Shown: one piece after another, positions 1,927-16,272 of the stretch | Layout of the letters: each line of letters begins with the position of its first letter | How positions within the stretch are numbered: position 1 is the first letter of the stretch | Virus record (IMG/VR): IMGVR_UViG_3300034736_000605 | Span: 1-20,331 of that record | Direction: 5' to 3' (one strand) | Length of the DNA: 20,331 nucleotides | Source: a virus | The notes under the pieces: generated by a model | The model's input: the letters and a program-made list of their open reading frames with translations, nothing else | What the model was told of the DNA's origin: nothing | Databases searched by the model: none | Translations under genes and position numbers: made by a program

Positions 1927-4900
1927 TTAACCAATAAGCACTTCAACTATGCCACGTTCGCTATCCGTCTTTTCTGTTATTGCTTTGCCTATAATAGTTC
2001 CGTATTTTGGATTATTATCTACACATGCATATCCTGCTATTGCACTAGTAACTATAATATCACCTTTGCTTACTGCACCAACTACATTACACGGAACTCG
2101 TCCTGATAATGCAATACCTGTTACAAAGTCACCTTCTAAATCGCTGTTCATTAAGTGTGCTGGATTAGTAGTAACTACACCTGCAACTCTATGATCACCT
2201 TTAGTATTAGTAACTGTTACTTCTGCGCTGCCGCCTAGTACAAGTACTGTGCCTGGAATATACAAACCATCGCCTAAATAGTTTTCAGCTAAGTCAGCAT
2301 ATTTTGCAGTTGTAGAAGTGCCGCTGAATGTAGTACCATAAACAGTATTCCACTTACGACTATTAGAACCTAAGTTTCGAGTGTTGTTGCCATCAGGTAT
2401 AATGTTTGTATCAACACTACCATTCATTGATATTTTATCTGCAGAAGCATTACCTAAATCAACACTTCCATTAACAGTTAAGTTTCCGCCAGCAATAATA
2501 TTACTATTAGCACTAATTGCTCCAGCACTACTAATTGTAACACCTGTGCTGCCGTAGCCTCCACCAAATGTTGCACTAGATGATACAACAAGATTTGACG
2601 AAGTACTAATTGCTCCACCTACATTTAATGTGCCAGTGGTACCTGATCCAATTGTAGTATTACCAGTGCTGCCTGATACTAAGAATTTTGTAACAGGTGT
2701 TCCTGCACTATTTTTAATAGTAAAGTTATTTGCAGCATTAATAGTAACATCGCCTGTAAAGTCACCTGCTAGTGCTTGAAAGTTTACACTAGACCGTACT
2801 AAATTACTACTAACTAGTAATCTTTCAACGCCGCCTGTTATTGTGTTAACTGTATCACTTGCCGAACCACTATATCCAGTTCCTGCACCTATACTAATAC
2901 CAGTACTACTAGCGCCTTTTTCAGTAAGTGCTTCAATAAAGTTAGTATACACCCAACGTGCTGCTAGTGCCGACTTACCTTGGATAGTTGCGTTACCTGT
3001 TCCAGTTCCTGCTGCTGTTGCTGTAAATACAGTACCTACAGTATTATTTGCTGCACCAATTGTAGTAAAGTTAGTTGACCCTGCTACATTAATCTTATAT
3101 TGTTGTCCTGCAATAATGTTACCAGCAGTTGTAGTTGTACCTTCGCCATAAATACTAGCTGTTTGAGAGTTGCTCGGGTCTGCTGATGTACTTCCTATAT
3201 CACCTACAACAATTTTGCCGCCCATTAACGAAGTTGGTCTATTATTACCTGATGCAGTAAGAATAACGCCACCGTTTGGTGTTGTAAAGCTAAGTGTGTT
3301 ATCTGATTCGTCTAATACTACATTAGTAGATGATCCGCCTAATATGAAACTATCAGCTTGTAATGATCCTGAATCAGTTCTTCTTGCAATACTGTTGTTA
3401 GCACTACCGATACTAATTGGTGTAGTACCGTATATTCCATCATCTTGTCTAACAAGCACACTACCTGTTAAGTTTTCTGCTGTATTTACAGATGTCACTG
3501 TGCCAATAGCACCACTTATATTACCTGCAACTGCACCGTTTGAAAAGTTAGCTGCTGCGCCATTGCCTGTATTAGTAATATTAATAACGTACATACTAGT
3601 TTCATTAAATACTGAGCCTTGTACAGTTCCGGATATATTACCTTGTGTAATAGTTTCGCCATTGCCTACAGTTATACCAGTACCAAAGTTTAATTTGTTT
3701 CCTGATAAGACTACAATGTCACTAAGTTCAAAGTCATGATCTTCTAAACCTTCACCTTGTTTAACAATTTGATCAAAAGTAATTGCACTAGCATCGCCGG
3801 TGCCTGTTACTGATCTACCTATTACAGTATCAGTGGGTATTTGCGCTAGTTTGTCAAATCCAACACTACGTTCTTTTAGTCCTATGTAACCACTACTAAG
3901 TACCGCTGTTACTGTTCTACTAGTATTTGTTGCAGCTTGTTCGACACCGTTAGTATACACTGCTTTAGTAATTATTGTACCGCTAGATACCCAGGTGTCA
4001 GTTGTTTTAATAACAATTAATGTATTAGCTGTAGCTTGTACTGCCACTACACCTCTATTAGTACCTTGGTATAATATATCACCTACACTAACAGTAAGGC
4101 CACCGGATAGTGTTAAGCGTAATTCTTCAGTGAAGTTGTTATCGTCAAATACACTAAGTCCTCTAAAACTTTGTCCAACACTATCGCCATTGCCGTATAA
4201 CCCTGAACTAGTATCTTTAGTTGATGCTCTGTTCATTAATAGTTTAGTTTGAGCAATACTTGCTGTTGACGAAATTTCAGTATTTGTTACAACACCACTG
4301 CGTAGCTGTATATCAATTTCTGCTATTGCATTAGCACCGCTAGAATCTAGTACGCCGTCATTTCTTGTTAGCGTAATATTAACGTCACTAGCACTACTAT
4401 TACTTGTGTTGCCTATTTCATCAAATGGTCCTCTAAGAACAAACGAAGTAACATCTGACTTACCAGCATCACCTTTAATAGCTTCTTCAGCAAAGTCATT
4501 AACTGATGTTAAATTATAAGTTATAATCCAAACTGAATTACCTGGTTCATTTTCACCTACAATATCGTCTGTTGTTTGTACTATGTCTTTAACGACGCCA
4601 GTAACAGCACCGGAATTGTTCTTAATAATGTCACCAACTACATACGTGTCTGTTCCACTTCCGTCTGCCGGTACTGCAATTATTACTTTTCTGTAACCTG
4701 TATATGCAACAAAGTCGCCTGCTGCCTGATCGTTCTTTGATGTTTCTCTTAATACATCAAAATTATCAGTAGCAAGTACTTTAGTATCAACATATGATTT
4801 GTTAGTTGCGTCATCACCGTTATCTGGATTGTCAAGGTTTTGTATCTTGTTCCCGCCGAGGTCTAAATCGCCTTCCATTGCCGGTGTGCCATTTAGTGGT

Positions 4901-7900
4901 AAAAATCCTGATACTGATCCTAACCCTGCTATAGTTGCGTTATTTTTATCTCTACCTAAACGTTTGTTTACATATTGAACAATAGCTTTTTCAACTGGCA
5001 CTGCACTATCTGATTCATCAACCATGTTATCATCAATCGAAAACTCATCAACAACAACGCCTTTCTTAAATCCAAATCCGTTAGCATTTGTAATTTCAAG
5101 TTCGCCTGAGAAGCTAATTGAACCCTGCGCCTGGTCTACAGCAAAGAACTGTCCAACACGGAAGAATCCGTATTGGTCTGTACTCATCCAAAACACACGA
5201 CCTTTACGTCTTTCCCAAACTTGTGACGACTCGGCCGATTCACTATCTGTGTAAAAAGGCGCAAGTGATTTTTCAGCAGCACCTAAGATAACATTTGGAT
5301 AGTTCGAATCGTTAAACGAACCAGTACCAATTTGTGTAAAGTCGTGCCCTGTTGCACGACATAGTGATATAGCAACTGTAATTTCAGCAGTTGCATCTAC
5401 TTGTAGACCTGCATATAATGTACGATCTTCGGTAAATCCAGCAGCTAATCCTGTGCCACCTGTTGCTGTAATGTCAGACATTGGAATAGCATCAATTGTT
5501 ATTGAACCTGCACCTGCACCTGCATCAACAGTGTCCATAATCTGATGTGTTCTACCAGCATACGCAAATGTCATGCCGCCTGCGTAACCTGTTATTGCAA
5601 TACCACTTGGTATTGTTGCTACACCTGATTCAATTGCATCTGTAACAATATCCATAAGTGTTACGGCAGTAGTAGCAGTGCCTGATTCAGTAGTTCCACC
5701 AGTAGTATCTTGTGTATATCCGTTACCATTAGTAGCAGTCCATGCAGACTTTGTTAAGATATATTGTGTTACTATCTCTTTTGCTTTATCTTGTGCTGCA
5801 ACAGTTTCAGCTTGTTGTGCAACTGGAAGATATGAAACTGTTCCTACATAATATTTGTTTGCATTTTGGACAGAATTAGCATTGCCGCCGTATTTCAAAT
5901 CGTTTGCAACTCCACGAACAATTAGTCCAACATCTCTGTAGCACTTTCTTTGGTCGTATACAAATCCTGGGTATGTTGTATTCAACCATGCAATTACCTC
6001 TTCTTGTACAAATCTTACGTTATTAGCAATTAAGTTATGTGCGTTAGGATTTGATGTTGCACCTGGCTGATTACCGTAAATATCTCTAGTAAGTCTTGTA
6101 AAGTCAGCAGCTTCAAGATTCTTTGAAGTAACGTCTGTGCTCACTGCAATAGTAGTATCGCCTACAGCAGTACCGTTGCCGCTGCCTGCGTTAGCAAAAT
6201 CTACAGGTATTTCAATATGATCGTATTCTAAGTTAAATGTAGTTTGTACTTGTGTATCTGATAATTCAGTACCAAAGTTATCACTGCCTGAGAACGATGT
6301 TGATCTATAAGTTATAAGATCACTTTCATCAAAGTTAACAGCAGTACTAGGACGTTCTACGATAGTTTCTTTACTTCTAACTTTATCAAATATGTGTGTC
6401 GATCCTGCTCTATATTCAATAACTGCACCATTTGCTATAGTAACTTGTACTGTACTAAACAAGTCGCCGTTTTCGCCAGCTGGCTTGCCTTGAAGTTGCA
6501 GTCTATAAACTAAGTCATTATATACGCCACCTGTTGGAGCACTTATTCCATTTGGCAATGTTGCTAATGATACAGAACCAATTCTATATCGCAGTACACC
6601 AGTAGCTCCACCATGGTCAACTTGTACTAATGAGTTAGGCGCAGGTGGATATTTAATATCAGTAATAACTAAACTACTTTCGCCAGCTGCGTTTGTATCA
6701 GTAGAGCCGTCAGTGTAAGTAAACACTTTAGCCGGCATTGTCATGTCAGTTGCGTATGTTACTTGATCTGGAATTTCGTTTGGATCTGCACCTTCAGCAA
6801 CTAAACCAAAGTTACCGTATCCATTAGACCCGTTTAGTGATCTAATTTCCGAACCGTTCTTAGCATAATATGCTGCATGGCAATAATATGTAAACATACT
6901 AACCATCTCAGAGAATGCACCGTTATTAGTAACAAGACCGTAGCCTAAATCGTTAATTTGTGTAAAGTCGTTTCCAAGCATACTTCTGTTACCAGCAGTC
7001 TGGATATACACAGTTCTAGATATTTGTCCAGGACGTTCAGTAAACTCAGCTTCATTAAACCCGGCACCATCATTTGATGTTGGATCTAAGTGAATTTTAC
7101 ACCAGCCATTAGCACGACTATACCGACTAATTGCGTTAACTTGATATCGTCTGCCTTCTATGTAGAACGGCGCAGGTAGTTGCGGTTCACGTAAGAACAA
7201 ACCAGTTCCTTCTTCAGACTGTACCCATAATTCGTAAGCATTAGTTTTACCAGATTCTATATCTGATGCGTCACCTTCTCCTACTGGATCAATTGTTGTT
7301 GGAATATACATTGGCAAGTTACCTGCATATGCATCAACAAACATGCCGCCGCCAAATATCTTTTGATTGCCTTTAGATTTAGAAAAACTAGAACCAGTTT
7401 GAACGTATGGAGATTTGGTTAAGATTTGACCTTCTGGATCAAGTACTAACAAGAAGCCGCCGTGGCCTTGTACAGTTATGTTACGTAAAATAGTTGCATC
7501 ATTCATCATGAATACATCCATTTCATCGTTGCGCCTTGGTGGGTTGTAATCTCTATTAAACGCAAATATCATTTTATTTACTAAGTTACCAACTATGCCA
7601 GTAGTACCAGCTTCAGCTACACCATACTTACCGTCAAACTCCTGGTAACCTGCATCAGCAGCATTTTGCCATTCGTCTGCAAGAGTGTATGCACCTGTAA
7701 ATACTCTAGTAGCAATAGTTTCAACATATTGTATTGCTTTTCTAGTAACATTTTCTTGTCCACTAAATCCACCACTGTTATACTGCTGAATATAGCTTTC
7801 AAAATATTCACCTTGAACTTCTGTTGCAAACTCATCTCCGCCTGCAACTAAATCATCTACTAGTGCGTCAACAATTAGACCAACATCTCTTTTACACTTA

Positions 7901-10900
7901 TCTTGATTATATGTAAACAATGTTACGTCATTAGCATCTAAGTGTGCTAGTGTAGCAGAGTTCATTGTAGAAACGTTACCGTCAATACTTGATTTTGCTG
8001 CTATTAAGTTTGCATCACTTATGTCTGCTAAACTTGGCGGAACTTTTGTTCCTATGTTCAATAAGTTATTGTTATTAATTTGAGTAAAAATTAAGTTTAC
8101 TTTTGAATTAACAACTCCAACTTCAACAGACGATGCTGCTGTTCCTGATGTATCTTGTACTTGTGTGTTTCCTGTTGTTCTAGTAATAGCAGTTTCAAGT
8201 AACACTTTTTCCATAACAGTTTTGATATGTGTTAGTGTAGTTAATGTTTCTTGTCTTGTATTAATTTCAAACTTTAGTGTACCTTGTGTAAATAGGTCTG
8301 TTGCAAATTCATGACTACCAACGTTGCCGCCATAAAACGCATCGTGAGTAACAGCATCGACAAAGTTTCTAAAGTCTGTTAAACGCACTGCTTCGTTTAG
8401 ATATTTTTGCGGAGTAAGTGACTTTAAGTATGCAAGTGCTTCTTGCGCAATAAACTCTTTGTTTGCTTGTAGTTGACTTTTTGCATTAGTAAGTCCAGCA
8501 GTTACGCCTGTGTGAGCAGTAAATGTAATTGGAAATACTGCGCCAGTATCAGTGTTTACAACGCCTGTACTAATAATAGTTATAATTGCGTCAAACCCGG
8601 CATCAGCTCGTGTGCCAACCCCTGGAAGAGCTGCTACTAACCCTTTAACGTGTGTTAACGCTTCTATCCAGATAGCTTTTAGTTTTGCATCTAAATATAT
8701 GCTTTTTGATCTTTGGAATTTTAAACCTTGTAAAACTTGATTGTATGTTGTACCTAATGTAAAGTCATACGTTAATCCAGAAAGTATTTCTTCCATGTCT
8801 GACTGGAATGCAACTTTATCATATAGTAGATCATCAACATTTGTATTAATGTAGCTAATGATTTCTTCTTGTATAAACTTTTTATTTTCTTTAAGAGATG
8901 CAGCGGCACTACTATAACCGCCTGCGTTAGTAACTGAAACACCGGTATTCTGTGTCTTCTCAGGATTTGCTAGATAGTGGTATCCAAAGTGTCCTTGCCA
9001 ACCGCCTGTTTGATTATAAAAACGTGTACCTGCTGTAGAAACAGTCATACCGTCAAAATCATTATCTCTGTAAAAATATGTGTCAGCCCATCTAGACTGT
9101 GATACTCTGCGTTTTGGACGAATAATTACTCGTCTAAATTCGTCACCTTTGATCGATACGTTTGCTGCAACTTTAATAGGATAGTCTTCTTCATAAAATC
9201 CTGACTCGACAAAAATTGTAACTTGCTTTGACTTAACAAAGTTGCCATATTCTAAATCTTCGTTAGCAATGAAATCAATCGGCTTTAGTAGTTCTATTTC
9301 TGCTACATCAAAGTCTCCGCTAACATCTGGATTGTTTGCTGCATTACTTGCAAAGTAATTTACAACTCTACCTTGTGCTTTAGATATTTTACCAACTAGT
9401 ACTTTGCCAGGAATGATGTCTTTGTTATTTGCAACAGCTTGATCAGTTGATAAATTACCTTCACCTGGATCAATTTTTACCAGGTACGTACGACCAGCGT
9501 TTATAACTGCGCCAGCATTAATGCCATCTTGTATAATCTCGCTGATTAAATTAAATTTTTCAGTAACACCGGAAATTGCAAGTGCTGCTGCGTCATTGCC
9601 TATATCAAAGCTTTGTTTGTTATCAGTTTGATAAACAACACCTATAGTTCCGCCTGTTGTATATTCAGTAAATCCAACAGTACTAACAGCAGTAGTTAAT
9701 GCTTCGTCAATAAACAATTCAAATGTGTTTGCAGATATAACTTTAGCATAATAAAATTGGTTGTTAACTTCGACCATGCCGTTAGCATTTTTAAATACTA
9801 CAATATTTTTATCAACTAATCCATGCGACAATGTTGTTGTTACTAATGGAATTGCAGCTTGGGTAATACTAGTAACTGGTGTTTGTAAATATGTTCTATT
9901 TAAAAGTATAGATCCAATTATATCTCTTGCAGTTTCAATTGAGTCAATTGTTTCTACTACTTGGCGCTTAATTGCAATACGTCCGCTTGCATTTGAATAG
10001 TAACGCTCTGCTGCTTTTCTAGTTAAACCGTTTGCATTGTTTAATACAGTACTTGGACTTAGATTAATATCAAATGCAATTGCATCCATAATCAATCCTA
10101 AATCACGTTCACATGTAGCAATATTATAGTCAAAGTCTGGGTATGTAAATTTTAAATATGCTGATATTTCTCTAGCAACATAATCTTTGTTTAATTCTAT
10201 TAAATTTCTTGCTTGTGCAAATTGTGGTCCAAGGCCGCCGTTATTAGAAATTGCTGTGCTTGCAACTTTAGCTGGTGATGCGCCGTCATCAATAGTAATA
10301 GTTTGAAAATACGGACCTGGCTCAGCTTCTGCTGCTTGCATCATTTCAGCTGCACGAGCTGCTGCGGCATTAATACTACTATAAGCATAATTGTAAGACG
10401 TACCTTCTTTGCCAGACGGAACGCCACGCATTGTGTCGTCGCCTTGTGAACTAACAAATAAGTTGTCTTTTGCCGAATATGAAGTGTTGTCTACATAAAA
10501 CTTTGTAGCTGCTTGTAGGTCTTCTTTGTTGTTTGTAAGACCAGTTAATTCTCCAGGACTATCATGAAGTATTAATGCACCTTCCATTGTATCGCCTTGG
10601 CGTCTTACAACACTCTTACGTGGCATTGCTTCGTCTGCCAGGAAGAATCCTTCTAGAGCTGAATCGTATGCTGTGTCGACTAGGGTATGTGCATCATCGC
10701 CGGAAATAATAGCAGTAACAAATACCTTATTAGTGTTGGCATCATTTTGACTTTGAACAACTGCTTGCTCTTTAGTAGCATGTAAACTTAGCTGGTTTGC
10801 ATTAAAATATCTTAGGTAATATGTTTGACCGTTTGTTAGTGCCGGGGGCACAGTATCTTCAGCATTAAACAGATATGGTGTGCCGTTGATTGTTCTGTCA

Positions 10901-11553
10901 AATCCGTGACTGTTAACTACAGCGTTACCAGATGCATAACTTGCAATAGTTAGAGTATATTCAGATGCATCAGCTGGCTCGTCGCTAACACGTAATGGCA
11001 AGTCTCCCGCAACATATCTACTATCAGCATATCCTTTAGTAATAACAAGATCGTCAATAGTAATGTTATCAATACCAACGCCGCCGTGTACTTCATTAAA
11101 CCCTGTTACTGCATTTTCAGAAACAGCATTACCACTCAATGCAATACTGCGTATTTGGGCAACTTCTGCACCATCAGGCGATCTACCATCTAGTGGACCA
11201 CCAAGTCTTGGAGTACTATCTTGCGATAACTCTCTAAACGCTGTAGAAAGAATAATCTTTCCGCCGATATCATAGTTTATTAATATACTATCAGTAGCTC
11301 CGCCGTTTGCAATATCACTTGCAAATGTTACTAAGTCCATTGCCGTTGCTGAATCATTAACAAATGGTACTGTACGTGGTACTAAAAATTCGTTAGAAAC
11401 ATCACCTAGTGTAGTAAAATCAATTGACCCGCCAGCGCCAAATATTGCATATATTTCTTTAAAGTTTTCATTTACTTTACGAAACGATTCGCGAATACTA
11501 TCGCCGGTGCCGTCATTGCCTTCTACACCAATATCAACTTCTTGCTTTGCCAT
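1927..11553 (-). CDS. Giant modular virion structural protein, 3208 aa
   Basis: One uninterrupted frame covers almost half the window. Residues 13-31 hold the NDGTGD module shared with the gene at 1..175. Next comes a fibre-type RQGDTMEGALIL segment (about 317-355, ending in KFYVDN). A copy of a helical repeat follows at about 448, and a pectin-lyase-like beta-helix stretch at about 776-816 (VESGFYEEDYPI, then VIIRPKRR). Four more helical repeats lie between 886 and 1902. An ITVQGHGGFLLVLDPEGQ region (about 1355-1410) and a VFWMSTDQYGFFRVGQFFAV region (about 2115) resemble conserved parts of cyanophage structural proteins. A second fibre motif, GNKIQNLDNPDNGDDATNKS, is near 2230. From about 2250 the chain is a Gly/Ser/Thr/Asn-rich shaft. 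The last 125 residues form a KYADLAENY...PGTVLVLGG...GRVPCNVVGAVSKGD domain, a known phage fibre C-terminus. It starts three bases after the Fe-S carrier gene, behind GGAG. Likely a large tail-associated fibre or baseplate appendage. Confidence 0.9.
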   Translation of the reverse strand: MAKQEVDIGVEGNDGTGDSIRESFRKVNENFKEIYAIFGAGGSIDFTTLGDVSNEFLVPRTVPFVNDSATAMDLVTFASDIANGGATDSILINYDIGGKIILSTAFRELSQDSTPRLGGPLDGRSPDGAEVAQIRSIALSGNAVSENAVTGFNEVHGGVGIDNITIDDLVITKGYADSRYVAGDLPLRVSDEPADASEYTLTIASYASGNAVVNSHGFDRTINGTPYLFNAEDTVPPALTNGQTYYLRYFNANQLSLHATKEQAVVQSQNDANTNKVFVTAIISGDDAHTLVDTAYDSALEGFFLADEAMPRKSVVRRQGDTMEGALILHDSPGELTGLTNNKEDLQAATKFYVDNTSYSAKDNLFVSSQGDDTMRGVPSGKEGTSYNYAYSSINAAAARAAEMMQAAEAEPGPYFQTITIDDGASPAKVASTAISNNGGLGPQFAQARNLIELNKDYVAREISAYLKFTYPDFDYNIATCERDLGLIMDAIAFDINLSPSTVLNNANGLTRKAAERYYSNASGRIAIKRQVVETIDSIETARDIIGSILLNRTYLQTPVTSITQAAIPLVTTTLSHGLVDKNIVVFKNANGMVEVNNQFYYAKVISANTFELFIDEALTTAVSTVGFTEYTTGGTIGVVYQTDNKQSFDIGNDAAALAISGVTEKFNLISEIIQDGINAGAVINAGRTYLVKIDPGEGNLSTDQAVANNKDIIPGKVLVGKISKAQGRVVNYFASNAANNPDVSGDFDVAEIELLKPIDFIANEDLEYGNFVKSKQVTIFVESGFYEEDYPIKVAANVSIKGDEFRRVIIRPKRRVSQSRWADTYFYRDNDFDGMTVSTAGTRFYNQTGGWQGHFGYHYLANPEKTQNTGVSVTNAGGYSSAAASLKENKKFIQEEIISYINTNVDDLLYDKVAFQSDMEEILSGLTYDFTLGTTYNQVLQGLKFQRSKSIYLDAKLKAIWIEALTHVKGLVAALPGVGTRADAGFDAIITIISTGVVNTDTGAVFPITFTAHTGVTAGLTNAKSQLQANKEFIAQEALAYLKSLTPQKYLNEAVRLTDFRNFVDAVTHDAFYGGNVGSHEFATDLFTQGTLKFEINTRQETLTTLTHIKTVMEKVLLETAITRTTGNTQVQDTSGTAASSVEVGVVNSKVNLIFTQINNNNLLNIGTKVPPSLADISDANLIAAKSSIDGNVSTMNSATLAHLDANDVTLFTYNQDKCKRDVGLIVDALVDDLVAGGDEFATEVQGEYFESYIQQYNSGGFSGQENVTRKAIQYVETIATRVFTGAYTLADEWQNAADAGYQEFDGKYGVAEAGTTGIVGNLVNKMIFAFNRDYNPPRRNDEMDVFMMNDATILRNITVQGHGGFLLVLDPEGQILTKSPYVQTGSSFSKSKGNQKIFGGGMFVDAYAGNLPMYIPTTIDPVGEGDASDIESGKTNAYELWVQSEEGTGLFLREPQLPAPFYIEGRRYQVNAISRYSRANGWCKIHLDPTSNDGAGFNEAEFTERPGQISRTVYIQTAGNRSMLGNDFTQINDLGYGLVTNNGAFSEMVSMFTYYCHAAYYAKNGSEIRSLNGSNGYGNFGLVAEGADPNEIPDQVTYATDMTMPAKVFTYTDGSTDTNAAGESSLVITDIKYPPAPNSLVQVDHGGATGVLRYRIGSVSLATLPNGISAPTGGVYNDLVYRLQLQGKPAGENGDLFSTVQVTIANGAVIEYRAGSTHIFDKVRSKETIVERPSTAVNFDESDLITYRSTSFSGSDNFGTELSDTQVQTTFNLEYDHIEIPVDFANAGSGNGTAVGDTTIAVSTDVTSKNLEAADFTRLTRDIYGNQPGATSNPNAHNLIANNVRFVQEEVIAWLNTTYPGFVYDQRKCYRDVGLIVRGVANDLKYGGNANSVQNANKYYVGTVSYLPVAQQAETVAAQDKAKEIVTQYILTKSAWTATNGNGYTQDTTGGTTESGTATTAVTLMDIVTDAIESGVATIPSGIAITGYAGGMTFAYAGRTHQIMDTVDAGAGAGSITIDAIPMSDITATGGTGLAAGFTEDRTLYAGLQVDATAEITVAISLCRATGHDFTQIGTGSFNDSNYPNVILGAAEKSLAPFYTDSESAESSQVWERRKGRVFWMSTDQYGFFRVGQFFAVDQAQGSISFSGELEITNANGFGFKKGVVVDEFSIDDNMVDESDSAVPVEKAIVQYVNKRLGRDKNNATIAGLGSVSGFLPLNGTPAMEGDLDLGGNKIQNLDNPDNGDDATNKSYVDTKVLATDNFDVLRETSKNDQAAGDFVAYTGYRKVIIAVPADGSGTDTYVVGDIIKNNSGAVTGVVKDIVQTTDDIVGENEPGNSVWIITYNLTSVNDFAEEAIKGDAGKSDVTSFVLRGPFDEIGNTSNSSASDVNITLTRNDGVLDSSGANAIAEIDIQLRSGVVTNTEISSTASIAQTKLLMNRASTKDTSSGLYGNGDSVGQSFRGLSVFDDNNFTEELRLTLSGGLTVSVGDILYQGTNRGVVAVQATANTLIVIKTTDTWVSSGTIITKAVYTNGVEQAATNTSRTVTAVLSSGYIGLKERSVGFDKLAQIPTDTVIGRSVTGTGDASAITFDQIVKQGEGLEDHDFELSDIVVLSGNKLNFGTGITVGNGETITQGNISGTVQGSVFNETSMYVINITNTGNGAAANFSNGAVAGNISGAIGTVTSVNTAENLTGSVLVRQDDGIYGTTPISIGSANNSIARRTDSGSLQADSFILGGSSTNVVLDESDNTLSFTTPNGGVILTASGNNRPTSLMGGKIVVGDIGSTSADPSNSQTASIYGEGTTTTAGNIIAGQQYKINVAGSTNFTTIGAANNTVGTVFTATAAGTGTGNATIQGKSALAARWVYTNFIEALTEKGASSTGISIGAGTGYSGSASDTVNTITGGVERLLVSSNLVRSSVNFQALAGDFTGDVTINAANNFTIKNSAGTPVTKFLVSGSTGNTTIGSGTTGTLNVGGAISTSSNLVVSSSATFGGGYGSTGVTISSAGAISANSNIIAGGNLTVNGSVDLGNASADKISMNGSVDTNIIPDGNNTRNLGSNSRKWNTVYGTTFSGTSTTAKYADLAENYLGDGLYIPGTVLVLGGSAEVTVTNTKGDHRVAGVVTTNPAHLMNSDLEGDFVTGIALSGRVPCNVVGAVSKGDIIVTSAIAGYACVDNNPKYGTIIGKAITEKTDSERGIVEVLIG
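5848..6042 (-). repeat. Internal helical repeat, copy 5 of 5 (residues 1838-1902)
   Basis: The most complete copy: NLIANNVRFVQEEVIAWL, TYPGFVYDQRKCYRDVGLI, NDLKYGGNANS and NKYY. It sits about 580 residues after copy 4, separated by conserved non-repeat regions. Confidence 0.8.
7795..8013 (-). repeat. Internal helical repeat, copy 4 of 5 (residues 1181-1253)
   Basis: The first half is degenerate (NLIAAKSSIDGNVST replaces the NK-F-I-x-x-E helix). The second half is canonical: YNQDKCKRDVGLIVDALVDD, then GGDEFAT and EYFES. Confidence 0.7.
8281..8484 (-). repeat. Internal helical repeat, copy 3 of 5 (residues 1024-1091)
   Basis: Contains QANKEFIAQEALAYLKS, then DFRNFVDAVTHDAFYGGNVG in the place of the RD-V-GLIVDA helix. 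The cysteine seen in copies 1, 4 and 5 is absent here. Confidence 0.7.
8707..8898 (-). repeat. Internal helical repeat, copy 2 of 5 (residues 886-949)
   Basis: The most diverged copy. It keeps ENKKFIQEEIISYI and LLYDK, but the C-x-RD-V-GLI helix is replaced by FQSDMEEILSGLTYDF. The loop GTTYNQVLQG replaces the GGN loop. Confidence 0.65.
9994..10212 (-). repeat. Internal helical repeat, copy 1 of 5 (residues 448-520 of the giant protein)
   Basis: Pattern: NLI-x-x-NK-x-(F/Y)-(I/V)-x-x-E, then TYPDFDY, then a C-x-RD-(V/L)-GLI-x-(D)-A-(I/V) helix and an Asn/Gly-rich loop ending in an aromatic pair. This copy has CERDLGLIMDAIAFDI and ends in RYYS. Confidence 0.75.
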
Positions 11554-11556
11554 CTG

Positions 11557-11943
11557 TTATGCTCCAGTTATTTCTGTATATTGTGGGTTTTCATCTTGTA
11601 TCTTCGCCACATCAAAGTTTACGCTTACACCACAGCCGCATGCTGATTGTGCGTTGGGATTATTAACTTGAAAAGTTGCACCCATTATGTCTTTGACATA
11701 ATCTATTTCTGTACCTATCATGAACATTACTGCTGTTGAACCAACTACAAATTTACCTGTGTTTGAGTCAATAACTACAGAGTTATCCTCTAAATCAGCT
11801 TCTGTTGCTACAGTAGCCCAATCGTATTCAAATCCTGCACAGCCGCCGCCTTTTAAGTTAAGACTGACTGCATAACTGTCGTTTTCTTGACATATACTAT
11901 CAATTTGTGCTTTTGCGGTGTCTGTTAGTGTAACTATGTTCAT
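11557..11943 (-). CDS. A-type iron-sulfur cluster carrier (HesB/IscA/ErpA family), 128 aa
   Basis: Small Fe-S carrier that in this family holds a cluster between three cysteines and passes it to apoproteins. All three ligands are present: C35 in GGGCAGFEYDW, and C102 and C104 in SACGCGVSVNF, with the family's spacing of roughly 65 residues between the first and the CGC pair. It is a little longer than the usual 105-115 residues because of an acidic tail (about 113-128). The ATG follows AAGGAT and the late motif GATAAATA at 11965..11972. Its stop is three bases from the giant structural gene, and its last Gly-Ala-stop codons supply that gene's ribosome site. So it is probably made late with the virion proteins, not with the early metabolic genes. 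hesB-like genes are known in marine T4-like phages; the client protein is unknown. Confidence 0.9.
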   Translation of the reverse strand: MNIVTLTDTAKAQIDSICQENDSYAVSLNLKGGGCAGFEYDWATVATEADLEDNSVVIDSNTGKFVVGSTAVMFMIGTEIDYVKDIMGATFQVNNPNAQSACGCGVSVNFDVAKIQDENPQYTEITGA

Positions 11944-14100: not shown

Positions 14101-14243
14101 ATTCTATAACTTCCGTCTAGTTCGTGTGTGCCTGAATTATAAATTGCCCATGCTATACAGTTGTACCATGCATAGTGTGGATTCTGCCTTAGTTGCTTGT
14201 ACCATTGTTTAAATAGTATAACACGTTTCTTAAACCTTGTCAA
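14094..14243 (-). CDS. Possible small Trp/Tyr-rich protein, 49 aa, between the reductase gene and uvdE
   Basis: A frame fills the reductase-uvdE gap exactly. It would start with TTG, sharing TTGA with the reductase stop, and end in TAG that overlaps the uvdE ATG (ATATGGTAG). The product starts (M)TRFKKRVILFKQWYKQ, continues through NPHYAWYNCIAWAIY and ends GSYRIW. Four Trp and five Tyr in 49 residues, with a basic amphipathic head, look more like a selected protein than chance. Against it: there is no ATG or GTG in frame and no clear ribosome site, and the TTG lies in the -35 box of a promoter whose transcripts would start inside the frame. If real, it must be translated from the longer message of the upstream operon. 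Confidence 0.42.
   Translation of the reverse strand: MTRFKKRVILFKQWYKQLRQNPHYAWYNCIAWAIYNSGTHELDGSYRIW
14215..14243 (-). promoter_or_regulatory. Sigma70-type (early) promoter for uvdE
   Basis: The minus strand has TTGACA at 14243..14238, a 17-base spacer, and TATACT at 14220..14215. The -35 box matches consensus fully and the -10 has one mismatch, at ideal spacing. It is identical in both hexamers and spacing to the promoter at 16295..16323. Transcription would start near 14208, about 108 bases before the uvdE ATG. Confidence 0.75.
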
Positions 14244-14962
14244 CCTACAAACGCCCGCTCTTGCACAAATGTACCTTGTGTCTTTTTATTACCTTCACAA
14301 AATCCTAATGTACTAAAATGTTCTTTTAGGTCATTGTTAAATCCTATACTACCGCATAACATCACACGTTGGAAAGATGGATCGTTAATCTTAACAGTGC
14401 CATCCTCCATGAATATTTGAATACGTCCTTTTAGTTCAGCATCTTCTTGTGTCACTGTACTGATGTATTCAATAGGCATTTCGTTTAAAAAGTCTCTATA
14501 ACAATCCTGCTCAGCATTTAATCTAGTTGTCCATGTCACTGTTATGTTTTCAAACAAGTCATATGTTTCGGGATCACGTAGCAAACTAATAAACGGTGCA
14601 ATACCTGTGCCACTTGCCATCATTACTAAATGACCACCTAGTTCTAAGTTAGCAAGCAATAATGTACCAGTTGGCTTCTCTCCTACTTCTAGCATATCGC
14701 CTACTTTAATATGCTGTAGTTTACTCGTAAGTGGTCCATCTGGCACTTTGATACTGTAAAATTCAATCCAGTCATCATACGGACCACTTGATATACTGTA
14801 TGCTCTCATTATAGGTTTGTTCTTTTGTAGTTTTTCTGACCAGTTGTCTAACCCAATCATCACAAACTCACCTGCTGTGAATCTGTATGAGCGAGGACGT
14901 TCAACTCGTATTCTAAACAGTGTGTCTGTGTAGTGTTTAACATCGATTACGCTTAGTTGCAT
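14240..14962 (-). CDS. fpr: Ferredoxin--NADP+ reductase, proteobacterial Fpr type, 240 aa
   Basis: FAD enzyme that moves electrons between NADPH and ferredoxin or flavodoxin. Visible motifs are the FAD-binding RAYSISS (residues 53-59), GTGIAPF (118-124) for the nucleotide-binding domain, CGSIGFNND (203-211) and the C-terminal VQERAFVG. RAYS, as opposed to the RLYS of plant and cyanobacterial enzymes, and the RAFVG end fit bacterial Fpr of alphaproteobacterial type. The length is slightly below the usual 248-272. There is no leader or membrane segment, so it should be cytosolic. It starts one base after the glycosyltransferase stop behind GGAG, so the two are probably translationally coupled. 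It belongs to the group read from the promoter at 16295..16323. It could supply or drain low-potential electrons during infection; the Fe-S carrier gene elsewhere in the window is a possible functional relative. Confidence 0.9.
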   Translation of the reverse strand: MQLSVIDVKHYTDTLFRIRVERPRSYRFTAGEFVMIGLDNWSEKLQKNKPIMRAYSISSGPYDDWIEFYSIKVPDGPLTSKLQHIKVGDMLEVGEKPTGTLLLANLELGGHLVMMASGTGIAPFISLLRDPETYDLFENITVTWTTRLNAEQDCYRDFLNEMPIEYISTVTQEDAELKGRIQIFMEDGTVKINDPSFQRVMLCGSIGFNNDLKEHFSTLGFCEGNKKTQGTFVQERAFVG

Positions 14963-14963
14963 A

Positions 14964-15782
14964 CTATCTCCAGTTTGCCTTTACCCAAGGATCGTTACAG
15001 TTGTGTGGATTAGGATCTCCATGAAACACACAAATACAACAATTATCCTTTGGTGTAGTGTCTTCTATTATTTTTAGTGTTCTATTGCCTCGTTGTCCGC
15101 CCGGGGCAAATTCCTTAGATCTTCTTATTTCCCATTTCCAGCTCATGATCCAATCATCAGGAAATAGTGTTGCAGGCTTGTTTTTAGTAACTTCAAATAA
15201 CCAGTCTTGATCGCCGTGGTGCTTACTTTGTATTAGTGTATGATCTTGTTTAAACGATTCCCAAAGATGTGCTAGTTGTCCTGAGTTAAACCTAACTACG
15301 CTACTATTGTATTTTTCCCAATTTGGCCGCATCTTACGTGTAAAGTCTCGTATAGTACACCAATGGGATGATTCGTATGTAAACAAGTGATCTATGTTGT
15401 TAGCAATGACTACGTCAAGATCCATGTACAATATAGTACCATTTAGTTCTAGCTCATTAGAAAACATATACGGTTTACACCACCATCCTTGCAAATTATG
15501 AGGAAGTGGTTTAACTAAAATGTTTGGATTAAGATTGCTAGGATCTTCTGTTAGACATACAAAGGTGTAGTCAAGTGTGCAGTTTCGTTGTACCATATTG
15601 TACAATGTATTAACATAATCTGCACTGTACTTGTCGCCGTGTTTTAGACACAGAACATAGTATTTGTTGTTTACACTTTTCTGCGGCACAGTTTGAACAA
15701 CTTCAACACTTTTCTGCACCTTGTCTAAGGCTTTGCGTTTTTTACGTTGCTCCTTAGTTTCGCCTTCTACATATTTTTTCAT
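14964..15782 (-). CDS. GT8-like glycosyltransferase, 272 aa
   Basis: The segment ILYMDLDVVIANNIDHLF (residues about 117-134) carries the D121-x-D123 metal/nucleotide-sugar motif of GT-A fold enzymes. YNSSVVRFNSG (158-168) and HHGDQDWLFE (188-197) fit the acceptor and catalytic regions of phage GT8-like transferases. The C-terminal CVFHGDPNPHNCNDPW resembles the HG-x-x-KP/NP end of that family. The first 35 residues are highly basic and probably disordered. The ATG overlaps the stop of the PTPS-like gene (TAATG), so translation is coupled. It probably modifies a surface glycan, a virion protein or DNA; the substrate cannot be read from sequence. Confidence 0.82.
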   Translation of the reverse strand: MKKYVEGETKEQRKKRKALDKVQKSVEVVQTVPQKSVNNKYYVLCLKHGDKYSADYVNTLYNMVQRNCTLDYTFVCLTEDPSNLNPNILVKPLPHNLQGWWCKPYMFSNELELNGTILYMDLDVVIANNIDHLFTYESSHWCTIRDFTRKMRPNWEKYNSSVVRFNSGQLAHLWESFKQDHTLIQSKHHGDQDWLFEVTKNKPATLFPDDWIMSWKWEIRRSKEFAPGGQRGNRTLKIIEDTTPKDNCCICVFHGDPNPHNCNDPWVKANWR

Positions 15783-16228
15783 TACGCTTCATAAATCGCC
15801 GAGTTTGCTCCATGTTCTGCACATTCAGCTCTTACACAAAAACAGCGATTATCTGTAGCTTCACGTATAAGTGTGTCTGCAAAGCGCCACGCATGTTCTG
15901 CAAATTTCTCTGCACCTACACCGTCAAACACTCTAATTTCAGCTAGTCCTAAGTTTTGTAACATTAGCATAGTTTCCATCTCTGGATCATTTGCGTCTAC
16001 TGCTACCTTATGATCGAAGTGATCTTCTAGCCATGCTTTAAGCGGTTTTAGTCCACCAAAGTCTACAGCCCAATTTTTATTGTCTAGTTCTGTGCATCCA
16101 AATGTAAATGTAAATGCTAAACTGTAGCCATGTAGTAAGTGACAATGTGAATGATCTGCGTTAGGCTGTCTAAATACCGCTGATAGTCCGATGTTGTGTC
16201 CGTAATGCTTAGTTGAATAATATGCCAT
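15782..16228 (-). CDS. 6-pyruvoyl-tetrahydropterin synthase / QueD-like protein, 148 aa
   Basis: Family members act on dihydroneopterin triphosphate in biopterin or queuosine-precursor synthesis. Matches to the T-fold are HSHCHLLHGYSL (residues 26-37), VDFGGLKPLKAWLE (55-68) ending in F-DH (D72, H73), GAEKFAEHAW (105-114) and AECAEHGANSAIY (134-146). C29 fits the catalytic cysteine, D72/H73 the catalytic pair and E135 or E138 the pterin-binding glutamate. Two of the three usual zinc histidines are missing: F19 stands where FSAAH has His, and HGH is HGY (H33, Y35). I associate this HGY variant with proteins from marine phages and alphaproteobacteria, so it is probably a subfamily trait and not damage. 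AGGAG stands before the ATG, and a strong promoter lies 66 bases upstream. No other queuosine or biopterin gene is in the window. Confidence 0.82.
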   Translation of the reverse strand: MAYYSTKHYGHNIGLSAVFRQPNADHSHCHLLHGYSLAFTFTFGCTELDNKNWAVDFGGLKPLKAWLEDHFDHKVAVDANDPEMETMLMLQNLGLAEIRVFDGVGAEKFAEHAWRFADTLIREATDNRCFCVRAECAEHGANSAIYEA

Positions 16229-16272
16229 TGTAATCTCCTGTAGTTAACATATGAGCGGCAGAGTTAGAAGGG

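Follow-up and report, generated by a model that had tools for sequence, protein, structure and literature searches.

The window analysed here (20,331 bases) spans an entire IMG/VR virus record, which probably represents part of a tailed phage genome. Its minus strand carries a gene for a QueD-like protein (Table 1), and the carrier is a marine phage. The preliminary description had given this open reading frame with exactly the same boundaries and no strand. The frame is intact, and the plus strand of 15782-16228 contains many stops in frame 1. The gene is followed by a glycosyltransferase-like gene, the ATG of which shares one base with the queD stop codon, and then by a flavin/NAD oxidoreductase-like gene, the two together occupying 14240-15782 on the minus strand. 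In 43 of 86 related loci, too, a glycosyltransferase homologue follows queD at a distance of at most 60 bases. Other minus-strand genes among the ORFs scanned are a topoisomerase-subunit-like gene, a tail-fibre-like gene and a gene for a UvdE-type endonuclease. The minus strand also holds a 3208-aa ORF at 1927-11553, the product of which is probably a tail or virion protein, as judged from its place and look, and an A-type iron-sulphur carrier gene (PF01521) at 11557-11943; QueE-type radical-SAM enzymes require iron-sulphur clusters.

Table 1. Positions of the QueD-like gene, its adjoining features and the codons of its key residues in the window
Feature	Positions	Strand	Basis or conservation
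Glycosyltransferase-like gene (context only)	14964..15782	minus	phrog_1962, E 4.8e-30
QueD-like CDS (PTPS fold), 148 aa + stop	15782..16228	minus	ORF listing, profile matches, predicted fold
H139 codon, candidate third ligand or Y35 partner	15812..15814	minus	alignment counts
E138 codon, Glu at the presumed pterin-anchoring place	15815..15817	minus	221/221 HGY rows
E107 codon, conserved Glu	15908..15910	minus	221/221 HGY rows
D72-H73 codons, Asp-His of the presumed catalytic triad	16010..16015	minus	221/221 HGY rows
Y35 codon, third zinc-ligand position (second His of HGH), now Tyr	16124..16126	minus	
H33 codon, sole canonical zinc His retained	16130..16132	minus	invariant
C29 codon, presumed catalytic Cys	16142..16144	minus	221/221 HGY rows
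H28 codon, His adjoining the catalytic Cys, candidate new metal ligand	16145..16147	minus	
F19 codon, first zinc-ligand position (His of FSAAH), now Phe	16172..16174	minus	
Shine-Dalgarno-like AGGAGA (as reverse complement), upstream of the queD ATG	16234..16239	minus	by eye

The assignment of the protein as PTPS/QueD-like in the preliminary description is borne out by both its profile matches and its predicted fold. The Pfam PTPS model PF01242 matches with an E value of 1.4e-13 (51.3 bits, the cut-off being 22.4), which places the protein in the PTPS superfamily (PF01242, COG0720), and phrog_2389, listed as 'QueD-like', matches residues 3-147 with an E value of 3.6e-38 and is the sole family matched in PHROG. 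An AlphaFold2 model built from an input of 97 rows, taken from the window and the fetched loci, has a mean pLDDT of 95.4 and adopts a T-fold, and the solved structures nearest to it are those of PTPS/QueD proteins. The top structural score is that of Wolinella 3jyg (Z 16.4), and superposition on E. coli QueD 4ntk by VIA-align gives a Z of 14.3 and an rmsd of 1.7 over 115 residues. The QueD equivalog NCBIfam TIGR03367, however, scores 33.3 bits, far under its cut-off of 89.25. This shortfall lends some weight to a changed reaction or substrate, in which the protein would yield a different pterin or a different 7-deazaguanine precursor or serve as a pterin-binding helper, whereas the full retention of the catalytic and pterin-anchoring residues argues for the QueD reaction. 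C29, D72 and H73, which we take to be the catalytic Cys-Asp-His triad of the family, are retained together with E107, as had been described from the window. A kept C-terminal Glu had been described as well; a conserved Glu does exist, but the relevant one is E138 immediately before H139, presumably the pterin-anchoring Glu of the family, rather than the near-terminal E147.

QueD is regarded as a zinc enzyme. Where the superfamily has its three zinc ligands, the window protein reads F19, H33 and Y35, in agreement with the preliminary description, so that only H33 is canonical and the usual three-histidine zinc site is missing. F19 can be placed with confidence from intermediate proteins, in which HRQW...C...HGY stands in place of the FRQW...C...HGY of the F19 clade. 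For comparison, passages of PMC7546909 give H29, H41 and H43 as the zinc site of Plasmodium PTPS. According to passages of PMC5041015, CxxxHGH is the signature of PTPS-I, to which QueD belongs, and CxxxxxHGH and ExxHGH are those of PTPS-II and PTPS-III; the window protein reads CHLLHGY, and the HGY form fits none of these signatures.

The altered positions were followed through 300 distinct PTPS-like proteins gathered from 407 loci, from which six incomplete or off-pattern rows were removed to give 294 rows, or seven to give 293; among those removed are the Cys-less second PTPS of locus L069 and a bacterial protein whose position 19 is Leu. The row counts represent related sequences rather than independent events and reflect the way in which the proteins were collected. 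In the first homologue set (n = 181, a few canonical proteins included), 162 proteins have Phe at position 19 and 177 have Tyr at position 35. The 294 rows comprise 160 with Phe, 133 with His and one with Tyr at position 19, and 222 with Tyr and 72 with His at position 35, with no other residues at either position. These rows fall into groups F19_Y35 (160, including one Tyr19 protein counted as Phe), H19_Y35 (62), H19_H35 (71) and F19_H35, the sole member of which is the protein of Synechococcus phage Yong-L2-223. C29, D72, H73, E107 and E138 do not vary among the 221 HGY rows of the 293 aligned. The loss of two of the three canonical zinc ligands could in principle reflect a decaying, inactive gene copy, but the F19/H33/Y35 state is fixed in phages of many hosts, the frame is intact, and decay is contradicted by the five residues that are invariant throughout the HGY rows; we thus regard this explanation as very improbable. 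The HGY proteins, which are frequent in both phage records and phage contigs and come from phages of many hosts, form a distinct conserved subfamily, as the preliminary description had expected.

Two positions distinguish the HGY proteins from the canonical ones and provide candidates for a rebuilt metal site. H28 is present in 160 of 160 F19_Y35 rows, 55 of 62 H19_Y35 rows and the single F19_H35 row, and in none of the 71 H19_H35 rows. Position 139 is His in 152 and Asn in 8 of the F19_Y35 rows (n = 160), and His in 37, Asn in 23, Thr in one and a gap in one of the H19_Y35 rows (n = 62); it is Gln in the F19_H35 row (n = 1), and Thr in 65 and Ser in 6 of the H19_H35 rows (n = 71). His or Asn is therefore found at this position in 220 of 222 Y35 rows versus 0 of 71 H19_H35 rows, and all 167 rows with just two His among positions 19, 28, 33 and 35 have one or the other at 139. 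H28 was among the replacement histidines proposed from the window alone and proved conserved across the F19 clade. H8, H11, H26 and H30, proposed along with it, are His in 40%, 55%, 51% and 44% of the F19_Y35 rows, respectively, and in 0 of 66 phiST-like rows, and they were rejected as general replacement ligands. H139 had not been among those proposed.

Pattern scans of IMG/VR with position 28 left open gave a similar picture. The F19 pattern (FRQW, six residues, C, three residues, HG(H/Y)) occurs in at least 120 stretches; among the matches listed, all 119 loci read are PTPS-like, and their 118 distinct proteins have His28 in 117 and Met28 in one, found at about 5749 of L494, where the His at position 26 is kept. 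Y35 is present in 118 of 118 distinct proteins among the matches listed, though the pattern allowed His there. The H19 pattern (HRxW, five residues, C, three residues, HGY) occurs in 111 stretches. A PTPS motif filter retained 70 of them, and a few of the other 41 look by eye genuine but incomplete; in the 52 distinct proteins, position 28 is His in 47, Asn in 3, Gln in one and Arg in one. The protein of Yong-L2-223 (L104:3001-3438), having F19, H28, an intact HGH and Gln139 and surrounded by a full preQ0 cassette, is the only F19 + H28 + intact HGH protein found; an IMG/VR pattern scan for F19 with HGH at its spacing gave 0 matches, and no relatives of it were confirmed in IMG/VR.

The main rival to a rebuilt metal site is a metal-free QueD, in which the zinc centre is gone and Tyr35, His28 and the Cys-Asp-His triad provide the acid/base and oxyanion functions. 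Dihydroneopterin aldolase, a metal-free T-fold enzyme, carries out a related carbon-carbon cleavage, and such aldolases appear among the fold matches of the model, with a middling Z of up to 8.3 only. The non-histidine residues are strictly Phe (one Tyr) at position 19 and Tyr at position 35 in the 294 rows, which looks like the outcome of selection, and eight F19 rows, those with Asn139, keep just two His among positions 19, 28, 33, 35 and 139. A metal site is nevertheless a better fit to the remaining counts: at least three His are present among these five positions in 280 of 293 rows, with two only in 13 of 293, and H28 is almost never lost once H19 is gone (117/118 among the matches listed). 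A metal-free enzyme consequently appears unlikely to us. Within the rebuilt-site reading, position 139 may serve Y35 rather than a metal because the H19 + H28 proteins, which have three His already, mostly keep His or Asn at 139.

The order of these changes was examined on a tree of 108 rows, picked to retain rare states and with the four trait columns taken out. The HGY proteins together with that of Yong-L2-223 form one clade (58 rows, SH-aLRT 99), which adjoins a group containing the canonical phage QueD of Quinobequin-P09, the support for this union being weak (70). The F19 proteins except that of Yong-L2-223, plus the Tyr19 protein of phage R5C, form one clade of 26 rows (SH-aLRT 99); Yong-L2-223 sits apart on a long branch and its placement is unsure. 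With Yong-L2-223 counted separately, HGH changed to HGY once and H19 to F19 once; in total, position 19 switches two or three times and position 35 twice. From this order it follows that H28 and His/Asn139 came in with the HGY change and that H19 was lost later. Intermediates with H19 + HGY, with F19 + HGH and with H19 + HGY lacking H28 all exist. The coupling of positions 28 and 139 with the loss of the zinc histidines appears suggestive in these alignments, and it is possibly hitch-hiking on one branch because there are only one or two independent pairs; a phylogenetic test of coupled change was set aside for the same small number of switches. H28 was lost five times in the H19_Y35 background (branch length 15.7) and never in F19 backgrounds (12.0 + 1.5). 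If the rates were equal, the probability of this outcome would be about 0.045, or about 0.15 when the Met28 protein of L494 is added, in a comparison biased by the choice of rows in favour of rare states. The L494 protein removes what little significance the rate comparison had, and the comparison was discarded as evidence for coupling.

The preliminary description had also placed the HGY form in alphaproteobacteria, for which no support was found. Genome G002, a bin titled Rhodobacteraceae, was chosen because it contained HGY proteins; among 190 genomes of its class, 12 gave matches, and HGY was found only in G002, the matches in the 11 other genomes reading HGH. A chromosomal HGY form in alphaproteobacteria was accordingly rejected for the 190 genomes searched. 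Two HGY loci in bacterial bins (L082 and L084) are flanked by phage tail or baseplate genes.

QueD contributes to making altered DNA bases, and its gene neighbourhood in phages bears on the reaction of the HGY proteins. Of 126 cultured-phage records with a match, 20 chosen for variety were opened, and an HGY protein is present in 17: BcepGomr, Pan1, BUCT-ZZ01, Motura, RHEph04, HD01, Iggy, Me-ZS1, MMDA13, R5C, IME-SM1, phiSM, phiST, Paride, immuto, pf16 and MiCath. The annotated HGY proteins in the opened records are mostly labelled ordinary QueD. In 14 of the 17, two or all three of folE, queE and queC are annotated within 3-4 kb; Paride has folE only, and IME-SM1 and pf16 have none of the three by annotation in the stretch opened. 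In BcepGomr, RHEph04, HD01, Iggy, Me-ZS1, MMDA13 and MiCath the order is queE, queC, queD, folE and a DpdA/TGT-type gene, and the canonical-HGH phage Quinobequin-P09 has queE, queC, queD and folE in the order matching these seven; other phages likewise have a canonical QueD at the same cassette place. The position of an HGY protein inside a full cassette in seven cultured phages argues against the changed reaction or substrate, as does the finding that a second annotated QueD occurs only in Paride among the 17 HGY records (stretches opened). The 287-kb Pseudomonas phage Paride (L102) has two PTPS-like proteins, at 706-1224 and 3001-3471, one of which reads HGH and is 3jyg-like by eye and the other H19 + HGY. 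In a BLAST of neighbouring ORFs, FolE/QueE/QueC homologues were found near 76 of 80 phiST-like, 10 of 11 Iggy-like and 10 of 13 Paride-like loci, near 15 of 80 loci closely related to the window and 3 of 7 loci in bacterial bins, and near 59 of 111 H19-scan loci, a set that includes chance matches. These context counts assign the clade, taken overall, to the preQ0 pathway.

This preQ0 neighbourhood was not recognised in the 20-kb window record, which is probably a fragment; folE, queE, queC and dpdA gave no recognisable match in it by tblastn with phage references, which do detect genes of the folE, queE and queC set in L025 and L010. Nor were folE, queE and queC found in the records of two of the closest relatives (G194 and G195). 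Among 17 longer records of close relatives, FolE is present in 9 and QueE in 8, both in 6 of 7 records longer than 100 kb, and QueC gave weak partial matches in one only (G209). Both FolE and QueE, but no clear QueC, were seen in L008-L010, L045, L062, L069, L078 and L079 (G196-G198, G205, G206, G208-G210), and the 7-deazaguanine pathway in those records might be shortened, ending at 7-carboxy-7-deazaguanine or using the QueC of the host. The window's own group may thus use a shortened preQ0 pathway. Since QueC is limited to weak partial matches in one record, the pathway of the close relatives may end differently, which speaks for a changed reaction; when set against the retained residues and the full cassettes, this alternative appears quite unlikely overall. 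A search of the 17 records with the TGT model PF01702 found none and is uninformative because the model also misses three control phage DpdA/TGT-type proteins; a DpdA alignment search, run without a positive control, gave 0 of 17. In L069, a second PTPS-like gene (6386-7003, plus strand) directly follows queD and overlaps it. It retains the Phe, HGY and Glu-His but has Arg in place of the catalytic Cys (HSHRSLLHGY), and its product is perhaps a non-catalytic partner.

Collectively, the reading that we prefer, and to which we give slightly more belief than disbelief, is that the HGY protein is an active QueD-type enzyme of the phage 7-deazaguanine pathway whose metal site has been rebuilt by a phage clade. 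Such an enzyme would convert 7,8-dihydroneopterin triphosphate to 6-carboxytetrahydropterin, with the catalytic triad and the pterin-anchoring Glu acting as in QueD. The lost zinc histidines would have given way to fixed Phe19 and Tyr35, and H28 and H33, perhaps assisted by H139 or water, would hold a metal or otherwise replace the zinc centre. What the analysis establishes is the residues, how conserved they are, the fold as predicted and the neighbourhood of the clade; the reaction, a bound metal and its ligands are deduced from these. In evolutionary terms, the first step would have been the change from HGH to HGY on a single branch, together with the appearance of H28 and His/Asn139, and H19 would later have become F19 in a sub-clade retaining H28. 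A bolder reading, which we hold to be less likely than not, is that the centre of QueD was shifted stepwise (from position 35 to 139 and from 19 to 28) or that the metal was dispensed with; with another metal or none, the enzyme would therefore be independent of host zinc. Activity of the HGY proteins would mean that a well-studied fold has had its metal site rebuilt or lost, with intermediates surviving in nature. These survivors (H19 + HGY, F19 + HGH, and H19 + HGY without H28) render a stepwise route of ligand exchange testable. Should the HGY proteins turn out not to be QueD, the second step has been misread in many of the phage 7-deazaguanine pathways predicted so far.

In passages of Hutinet et al. 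2019 (PMC6884629), folE, queD and queE of phage 9g are reported to complement E. coli mutants, which may support activity of the HGY proteins, depending on whether the 9g protein reads HGH or HGY. The same passages describe phage QueD proteins as clustering with bacterial ones and do not mention a zinc-site variant, and they state that the hosts of Rosebush lack the entire Q pathway. For a close relative of Iggy, passages of PMC11945000 describe a queD-queC-queE-folE-dpdA cluster and restriction-resistant DNA, and they cite Olsen et al. 2023, which by its title concerns dPreQ0 in the Iggy lineage of P. aeruginosa phages; parts of PMC8306585 and PMC11981692 give further context. Modified phage DNA is no proof that the HGY protein works because the hosts may own a QueD. 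No title or abstract on an HGY or zinc-site variant of QueD was found in the literature covered, a coverage that is incomplete and does not prove absence, and the phrog_2389 listing is silent on the altered zinc site.

Among known systems, QueD2 is comparable as a QueD paralogue linked to zinc supply; passages of PMC9508795 describe it as a second QueD, predicted in some bacteria to be controlled by the zinc regulator Zur. It differs from the HGY proteins in being bacterial and in reading HGH in the aligned stretch (A. baumannii 7v0f). The uncharacterised PTPS-like protein WS1659 of Wolinella (3jyg) reads CRHLHGH in the aligned stretch. The QueD proteins of Queuovirinae phages (Quinobequin-P09 and Vibrio phage 1.207) are neighbours of the HGY clade in the tree, with weak support, and lie in a similar cassette, but they keep H19, H33 and H35 and have Lys28. 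E. coli QueD (4ntk and 3qn0; COG0720, PTPS-I) is alike in predicted fold, in the catalytic Cys-Asp-His and in the Glu, and PTPS-I QueD proteins occupy the same slot in phage preQ0 cassettes. Canonical QueD, however, has CxxxHGH and the first zinc His, mostly Lys or Asp before the Cys, and Glu-Thr/Ser, whereas the window protein has CxxxHGY and Phe, His before the Cys, and Glu-His.
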